Assembly: GCF_002351485.1 (NCBI RefSeq) | Contig: NZ_NWMW01000002.1 | Location: forward strand, 744,001-808,000 | DNA: 64,000 bases | Reading direction: 5' to 3' | DNA from: Sphingomonas spermidinifaciens | GTDB lineage: Bacteria; Pseudomonadota; Alphaproteobacteria; Sphingomonadales; Sphingomonadaceae | Shown: piece by piece, positions 7,294-8,828 of the stretch | How positions within the stretch are numbered: the first letter of the stretch is position 1 | How the letters are laid out: each line of letters begins with the position of its first letter | Program-made: the position numbers and the translations under genes | The notes under the pieces: generated by a model | The model's input: only the letters and a program-made list of their open reading frames with translations | What the model was told of the DNA's origin: nothing | Database searches by the model: none

Positions 7294-8529
7294 CTATCTC
7301 AAGCTCGCCTCAGCGGCTTGGAGCTTAAGCGGCAAGACCTTCGCGCCGTCGCGCAGGAAGTCGAGATGATCAGACCAATGCTGCATCATGCGCACCCGCT
7401 CGTCCCAATACTCGCCGCGGGTGTAGGCGCGCCGGACAGCGTTGTTGTCGCAGTGGGCTAGTTGCCGTTCGATCGCATCGGCGTGCCACAGACCCATTTC
7501 ATTCAGCAGGGTTGCAGCCATTGCCCGGAAACCATGACCGGTCATCTGGTCCTGTGCATAGCCCATCCGCCGCAGAGCGGCATTGATTGTGTTCTCCGAC
7601 ATCGGCCGGTCAGCCGAAGTGCGCGAGGGAAACAGGAAGCCTTTGTCGTCCGCGTCATGCTCAATCGAACGGAGGATCGCGAGCGACTGGCGGGAGAGGG
7701 GGACGCTGTGAGCGCGCCGCATCTTTGTCTTTTGCGCCGGGATCGTCCAGACGGCCTTGTCGAGGTCGATATCCGCCCATTCGGCGAAGCGCAGCTCGCC
7801 AGGGCGCACAAAGACGTGAGGTAGCAGCCGAAGTGCTGCGTGGACATTAGCGCTGTCCTTGAACGCTTCGATCGAACGCAGCAGCGCGCCAGCCTCTCGG
7901 GGCGTCGTGATGGCGGCACGATGGACTGGCTTCGGGACGATCAGGGCACCGCGCAGGTCGCTTGCGACATCCCGGTCGGCACGTGCCGTCGCGATGGCGT
8001 ACCGGAACACCTGCGAACATGTGCTGCGCAGCCTCTTGGCAGTCTCGTAGCGGCCTTTGCCCTCCATCTTTCGGAGCATCAGCAAGAGCTCCTGCGCGGA
8101 GATCGAGGCGATAGGGCGCTTGCCGATCGCTGCGTTAATGAACCCCAGCAGCCAGCGCAGTTTCTTCAGGGTGACGGGCGAGCGTCCTTCCTTCTCGACC
8201 TTGAGAAGCCACTCGCCGGCGACAGCCTCAAAGCTGTTTGAAGCCGCTACCGCCGCCGCGATGCGATCGAGCTTGATCCGCTCGGCGGGATCATCACCCC
8301 GCGCGAGTATCTTTCGCGCTGCGTCGCGCTCGGCGCGCGCCTCGGCCAGCCCGGTTTCGGGCCATACGCCGAACGCCAGTGTCTTTTGTTTGCCGAGATG
8401 TCGGTAGTTCATTCGCCAGTAGCGACCGCCCGTAGGCGTCACGAGTAGATAGAGCCCGTCGCTGTCACTCAGCTTGTAGGTCTTGTTACGACTCTTGGCC
8501 GCTTTGATCGCCGCAACCGACAACGCCAT
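7294..8529 (-). CDS. Tyrosine recombinase, P4-type phage/island integrase
   Basis: A 411-residue site-specific recombinase. Residues 1-90 form the DUF4102-type N-terminal arm-binding domain (KLSDSDGLYLLVTPTG), 95-185 the core-binding SAM-like domain, and 205-400 the catalytic domain. Catalytic residues are visible: Arg242 (VRPGE), Lys267, His332-x-x-Arg335 (GHGFR), His359 and Tyr369 (RAYTRGEY). All are intact, so the enzyme could be active. It reads away from the tRNA-Glu gene 163 bases upstream, the usual layout of islands integrated at a tRNA 3' end. Four TGGTAT repeats flank and overlap its upstream region. Confidence 0.93.
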   Translation of the reverse strand: MALSVAAIKAAKSRNKTYKLSDSDGLYLLVTPTGGRYWRMNYRHLGKQKTLAFGVWPETGLAEARAERDAARKILARGDDPAERIKLDRIAAAVAASNSFEAVAGEWLLKVEKEGRSPVTLKKLRWLLGFINAAIGKRPIASISAQELLLMLRKMEGKGRYETAKRLRSTCSQVFRYAIATARADRDVASDLRGALIVPKPVHRAAITTPREAGALLRSIEAFKDSANVHAALRLLPHVFVRPGELRFAEWADIDLDKAVWTIPAQKTKMRRAHSVPLSRQSLAILRSIEHDADDKGFLFPSRTSADRPMSENTINAALRRMGYAQDQMTGHGFRAMAATLLNEMGLWHADAIERQLAHCDNNAVRRAYTRGEYWDERVRMMQHWSDHLDFLRDGAKVLPLKLQAAEASLR

Positions 8530-8531
8530 GA

Positions 8532-8632
8532 TGGTATCTCCATCGAAGCAACCGGCGACGTGCCATCAGATATACCATCAGGTTGTTGGTATGGAGTGGT
8601 TCATCACCGATCCGAATAGGATGGCTATACCA
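8532..8632. promoter_or_regulatory. Symmetric TGGTAT repeat array upstream of the integrase
   Basis: TGGTAT occurs exactly four times in 101 bases: forward at 8532 and 8587, reversed at 8572 and 8627. The set is mirror-symmetric about 8582, with 40 bases between starts within each forward/reverse pair. The outer two copies extend to TGGTAT-NN-CCATC. It lies between the integrase start and the tRNA 3' end, so arm-type integrase sites, excisionase sites or an autoregulatory operator are likely roles. The function is inferred. Confidence 0.5.
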
Positions 8633-8692
8633 CAAAAAACCGCAGAAAACAGCCGTTTACGGCACGTTTTGGGATGCCCTGGGAAGGCAGCC

Positions 8693-8767
8693 TGGTGACC
8701 CCTACGGGAATCGAACCCGTGTTTCAGCCGTGAAAGGGCCGCGTCCTAACCGCTAGACGAAGGGGCC
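8693..8767 (-). tRNA. tRNA-Glu (anticodon TTC)
   Basis: Read on the reverse strand it begins GGCCCCTTCGTCTAGCGG and ends with GGTTCGATTCC and an encoded CCA. The acceptor stem (GGCCCCT with AGGGGTC, one G-T pair), D-loop TAGCGGTTAGG, anticodon loop with TTC, and T-loop GGTTCGATTCC all fold normally. Length is 75 bases with CCA. Its 3' end faces the integrase gene, so it is the probable attachment site of the island to its left. It lies 61 bases downstream of recJ and could be co-transcribed with it. Confidence 0.95.
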
Positions 8768-8828
8768 GTGAGGCAGGCCGCGCGGATAGAAGAGGGCGGC
8801 GCGGCGGTCAAGTCCGTGACGCACGAAA

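Follow-up and report, generated by a model that had tools for sequence, protein, structure and literature searches.

What is served by the four copies of TGGTAT that lie between a P4-type integrase gene and a tRNA-Glu gene in the 64-kb stretch of Sphingomonas spermidinifaciens DNA analysed here (hereafter the window), and do all four serve it equally? A sequence-only reading had described them as a non-random mirror of four equal sites for a recombination protein, integrase or excisionase, that would also control int. The sites lie where that reading placed them, at 8532-8537 (+), 8572-8577 (-), 8587-8592 (+) and 8627-8632 (-), and their 40/40 spacing is exact. TGGTAT occurs nine times in the 64-kb window versus 4.24 expected, and none of 5000 dinucleotide shuffles of 8529-8693 contained four copies (0/5000; shuffle mean 0.13), in keeping with the claim that the array is non-random. 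In a fairer test for a word that was picked afterwards, any hexamer, on either strand, occurred four times in 8529-8693 in 9 of 2000 dinucleotide shuffles.

Conservation was assessed in the leaders of related integrase genes, which were deduplicated from 173 to 128 and then grouped into 48 clusters at 75% protein identity, with start codons set by alignment to the query integrase and independently of the repeat. From the 128 deduplicated leaders we drew 51 distinct tRNA-Glu-type leaders, defined by a tRNA-Glu 3' end and an integrase >70% identical to that of the window, whose own leader is included. All four TGGTAT sites are present in 38 of these, and 37 of the 38 (37/51 overall) keep the 40/40 spacing. 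Judged from the sequence, the true repeat unit is GATGGYA(T), and two parts of the array had been missed: a second direct copy, GATGGCA (8561-8567, minus), and the extension of the first site to GATGGTAT (8530-8537), which brings it flush with the int start codon (8527-8529). In int orientation the order is TGGTATA (8632-8626), ATACCA (8592-8587), GATGGTAT (8579-8572), GATGGCA (8567-8561), ATACCATC (8537-8530) and the ATG at 8529, and the unit thus occurs first as an inverted half-site, then as a direct pair with a 12-bp step, and last as an inverted copy flush with the ATG. The features of the locus are as follows.

7294-8529, minus strand: int, P4-type tyrosine integrase, 411 aa, ATG at 8529-8527
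8530-8537, plus strand: arm-site copy 3, inverted GATGGTAT, filling the gap between GGAG and the ATG
8561-8567, minus strand: arm-site copy 2, GATGGCA, second of the 12-bp-period doublet
8572-8579, minus strand: arm-site copy 1, GATGGTAT, first of the doublet
8587-8592, plus strand: accessory inverted half-site, ATACCA in int orientation, kept in 49/51 leaders
8626-8632, minus strand: probable extended -10 box of the int promoter, TGGTATA
8655-8684, minus strand: three direct repeats of 10-bp period (TCCCAGGGCA, TCCCAAAACG, TGCCGTAAAC), candidate excisionase (RDF) sites
8693-8767, minus strand: tRNA-Glu (TTC), its 3' end being the attachment-site core

The integrase reading frame is open, and its product scores above the Pfam cut-offs for Arm-DNA-bind_3, Phage_int_M and Phage_integrase. 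It contains HGFR and a downstream Y, which we take to be the tyrosine-integrase catalytic motif, and the protein is predicted to be catalytically active. Close integrases without the repeats, which would have spoken against the array, did not turn up among the 51 leaders: GATGGYA stands at copy 1 in 50/51 and at copy 2 in 51/51, and TACCATC occupies the place of copy 3 in 49/51.

The sequence-only reading had proposed looking for the same repeats at the other end of the island, and we found them there. A search of the genome with the junction located a 15-bp repeat of the tRNA-Glu 3' end (CCGTAGGGGTCACCA) outside the window, at G000:C2:706818-706832, 45.9 kb to the left of the int-side junction. 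On its island side, this far core copy is adjoined by the doublet TGATGGCATTTACGATGGTA (int orientation), which has the same 12-bp period. The pattern GATGGYAN5GATGGYA matches only twice in the 3.6-Mb genome, at int and at the far island end. Over 33 genomes, which were chosen for carrying a related integrase, it gave 67 matches versus 3 for the reversed control, with at least one in each of the 33. We fetched 20 of the 67 doublets, selected by visual inspection as probable distal or additional copies; these comprised 14 distal ends and 6 int-proximal sites, one of the latter without a recognisable core. At all 14 distal ends, a tRNA-Glu 3' copy of 11-20 bp ends 96-97 nt from the first base of the doublet. 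In the interval from distal doublet to core, 1 of the 14 has an exact match to the IHF consensus (0.14 expected), a count that is uninformative.

Sequence comparison thus makes it very probable that the array belongs to the attachment site of an integrative island of approximately 46 kb in tRNA-Glu (G000:C2 about 706,818-752,693), as its arm on the integrase side. So placed, it fixes both ends of an island that carries the integrase, an AlpA gene (C2:732076-732228), a relaxase, halogenases, TonB receptors and a glucosaminidase-like enzyme. Because the island contains a MobA/MobL relaxase-helicase gene, it is probably a mobilizable element; conjugation genes were sought in 18 island ORFs and the ORFs of the window. 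Its cargo (loci L234 and L235; G000:C2:706400-746000) includes two tryptophan halogenases, TonB receptors, ROK and MFS proteins, an exo-beta-D-glucosaminidase-like GH2 protein, an HlyD/ABC exporter, and a HEPN plus nucleotidyltransferase-like protein.

Four genomes whose int-proximal motif is another one were inspected, and in each of them the distal doublet differs in step with it: GATGGTG stands at both ends at tRNA-Leu in G143 and G144, GACGGTA at both ends at tRNA-Phe in G029, and GWTGGTG at both ends with a tRNA-Leu-like core in G145, where the link between int and distal end is only presumptive because the two stand on different contigs. At the tRNA-Leu distal ends (L173, L174 and L183) the exact tRNA 3' end is absent and a copy one G shorter, TTCTTCTGGCACCA, is present, ending at about +94 in L174 (hand count). 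L195-L198 were covered by reading the loci that overlap them (L174, L183, L173 and L188). A recognisable distal end was found in 1 of 12 genomes of the tRNA-Cys group, with GATGGTA as in its own int leader and a core ending at +96. A GGRCCACG search of six genomes gave int-proximal sites in four and distal ends in none. Five further motif-search matches (L171, L175, L177, L178 and L185) have no tRNA core, and we took them to be chance matches. The tRNA names were assigned directly for L242, L063, L064, L075, L081, L101, L104 and L109, and carried over from an identical 3' end for L077, L080 and L068.

We then compared the island with phage P4, relying on the annotation of its records (NC_001609, X05947). 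The P4 integrase is 40.2% identical to that of the window and belongs to the same family, although P4 is a satellite phage and the element of the window is an island. The annotated P4 attP has six arm repeats: a tandem pair on each side of the core, one inverted repeat at the start of int, and one inside int. P4 and the island are alike in having two tandem 12-bp repeats on each core side and an inverted repeat flush with the Met1-aligned residue, at 689-700 of the P4 locus (L236) and at 8530-8537 in the window. From the first distal unit base to the core end, inclusive, there are 97 nt in P4 and 98 in the island (the unit being counted from two bases before GATGG), and from the core end to the Met1-aligned codon there are 163 nt in both; within the tRNA-Glu group this last distance is 163 in 26 leaders and 164 in 25. 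The spacings of the array therefore match those of P4 within a base or so. The arm motifs differ, GGGGGCAY in P4 and GATGGYAT in the island. The annotated P4 start codon lies 12 nt further upstream, within the inverted repeat, and the -10 given in its annotation (CATAAT) shares bases with the first proximal unit; the -10-like site of the island is ~55 bp further upstream. The inverted half-site at 8587-8592 has no counterpart among the annotated P4 repeats. Since layout and spacings match, and since tandem ~12-bp repeats on both sides, an inverted repeat at the int start and a repeated tRNA 3' core were all found, the array reads as a clear example of the known P4-type design with a different repeat sequence.

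Four further plasmid and phage loci were read for the same plan. Stenotrophomonas phage S1 has all of it: one GGGGTAT doublet stands ~263 nt and another ~49 nt ahead of int, and a further copy is inverted at the ATG. A Xanthobacter plasmid has the proximal doublet. L238 and L240 have no fitting doublet of period 10-13 under an exact 7-mer rule, and repeat-like words are seen before int by eye. Among the systems found, the nearest in motif are the IntS sites of ICEMlSymR7A of Mesorhizobium: the accessible text of PMC11963761 describes five IntS arm sites, with consensus TGKTGGTATC, in a 283-bp attP. The island likewise has five, made up of the distal doublet and copies 1-3, and copy 3 of the window with its neighbours reads TGATGGTATC, with one mismatch to TGKTGGTATC, at the K. 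The paper that mapped these IntS arms is reportedly Verdonk 2019. ICEMlSymR7A stands at tRNA-Phe, according to the accessible part of PMC8627217, and the island at tRNA-Glu.

Together, the doublet at both island ends, the distal motif that follows the proximal one in four genomes, and the P4 layout strongly support the units as probable integrase arm sites. Some points do not sit easily with this: copy 2 is GATGGCA and not GATGGTA, and distal ends are recognisable in only 1/12 tRNA-Cys genomes and 0/6 of the GGRCCACG genomes. The alternative half of the earlier proposal, that the array binds an excisionase (an AlpA-type factor) instead of integrase, appears very improbable. An AlpA gene does lie inside the island, and in ICEMlSymR7A a target of the excisionase RdfS is 40 bp long and covers the intS promoter at the P3 arm site (PMC11963761, accessible text). 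The array, however, combines a 12-bp period with an inverted unit and occurs at both ends, the P4 annotation gives its counterpart as attP arm repeats, and the separate 10-bp-period repeats beside the core suit an excisionase better: RDF sites are described, in the accessible portion of PMC7498355, as direct repeats one helical turn apart. Between core and promoter, the self-match at lag 10 averages 0.394 versus 0.208-0.296 at lags 5-9 and 11-15 in 38 of the 48 clusters, the 10 without CCA in range being left out. Our guess is that AlpA binds these 10-bp-period repeats. A different proposal is that the inverted copies work at the level of the int mRNA, where the doublet would pair with the ATG copy and hide the ribosome-binding site. 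It draws on the inverted copy flush with the ATG in 28/48 clusters, on an excess of RNA-tolerated mismatches over other transitions (13 to 6), and on 10/48 clusters in which no more than 3 of 60 shuffles occlude the start site as much as the native leader does. In the window itself, the lowest-energy fold leaves copies 1 and 3 unpaired (z = -1.08) and start-site occlusion is reached by 27/60 shuffles; on these two results we rejected such a hairpin for the window. Moreover, 33 of 52 mismatches between copies are transversions, which fit neither kind of pair, pairing of copy 2 with copy 3 entails a C-A mismatch, and the doublet is also present at the distal end, where no int leader exists. We regard the mRNA proposal as highly improbable.

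The outermost TGGTAT (8627-8632) does not fit the idea of four equal, mirror-placed sites, which also overlooked the GATGGCA copy. The GA of GATGGTAT is missing from it, the P4 annotation shows no repeat at its place, and in the window's own cluster the motif match there is no better than in shuffles (0.34). TGGTAT is kept at this place in 44/51 tRNA-Glu-type leaders and TGxTA in 51/51, yet 24/28 clusters have no significant copy of their lineage motif there. A -10 box is the more likely reading of this site, and a TATA-like word can be seen by eye at the outer place in L063, L064, L079 and L081 (unclear in L075, L084, L086 and L097). That this site is also bound by integrase, with a functional four-site mirror, is unlikely in our view; in its favour are the 40/40 spacing kept in 37/51 leaders and the 4/28 clusters (L101, L118, L206 and L222) whose lineage motif recurs in forward orientation at -75 to -135. 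With the outermost site read as a -10 box, the exact four-site mirror is partly design and partly coincidence. A strict sigma-70 promoter scan of 8400-8800 found no promoter, and an intrinsic-terminator scan of the same interval no terminator; the int promoter is placed by conservation only, and its overlap with the attachment site depends on that placement.

With the outermost site set apart as a probable -10 box and copies 1-3 as probable integrase arm sites, we propose that the integrase contacts the GATGGYA units through its N-terminal Arm-DNA-bind_3 domain and the tRNA core through its catalytic domain. Integration or excision of the island would take place in a complex in which both arms meet; an AlpA-type factor may join it at the 10-bp-spaced repeats that border the core. 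Integrase on the proximal arm would also repress its own gene, because this arm covers the ribosome-binding site and either closely follows the probable int promoter or overlaps it. Position and published relatives make it likely that the array controls int, as had been suggested. In ICEMlSymR7A, IntS lowers the activity of its own promoter by about 25% (PMC11963761, accessible text), and in KplE1 the attL overlaps the promoter of intS, with autoregulation measured (PMC2951348, in the part available). KplE1 has the arm motif TAAA, unlike the island, and its regulation was measured whereas that of the island is deduced.

We asked how general the copy at the start codon is. A flush copy, defined as at least 7 nt, within 4 nt of the ATG and inverted to an upstream copy, is present in 28/48 integrase clusters. 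In 17 of these 28 the direct copies picked by script have a period of 12, a count in which the script took the outer site in place of copy 2 for the window's cluster. A match of at least 7 nt between the ATG copy and the leader it belongs to is seen in 29/48 clusters versus 11.3% of swapped pairs, and the own-leader mean was reached by 0/2000 permutations. The remaining 20/48 clusters have no flush copy of at least 7 nt at the ATG. Integrases <50% identical to that of the window account for 13 of these 20 and for 14 of the 28 with a flush copy; clusters without one are not simply the remote ones.

From these data we suggest, tentatively and with doubts that outweigh our confidence, that attachment-site geometry is nearly constant across the family (where measured) while arm sequence is lineage-specific, and that the flush inverted copy is perhaps a dedicated operator between Shine-Dalgarno sequence and ATG. 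If true, each family member would have its own readable recognition code for Arm-DNA-bind_3, and integrase would shut off int at the very start of its frame. A rule for finding sites would be to read the flush copy at the int ATG and seek its doublet ~96 nt from a tRNA 3' end, and the lineage motifs, for example GATGGTAT, GACGGTAT, GATGGTG, GGGGCCACG, GGGGGTAT and TGTTGGCC, would be raw data on how the arm-binding domain reads DNA. A literature search found, in the accessible parts of its sources, nothing on this island or on a flush start-codon copy as a family trait.

Further integrases and leaders gave additional observations. The same genome has a second related integrase, of 59% identity, at tRNA-Leu (L242; G000:C1:561509-562696), whose leader carries GTTGGTATTCTTGATGGTAT and an inverted ATACCATC before the ATG. 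This is nearly the same motif as in the array of the window, and since both are in one cell, cross-talk between this element and the island is possible. A third integrase, 31% identical (G000:C2:692429-693911), lies ~13 kb beyond the far end of the island, with an adjoining AlpA gene and GACGGTAT-type repeats upstream. Between tRNA-Leu and int, L081 and L099 have a perfect hairpin with a T run behind it (CGGCAGATTTCTGCCGTTTTTT), which is perhaps an element-borne terminator that ends the tRNA transcript.
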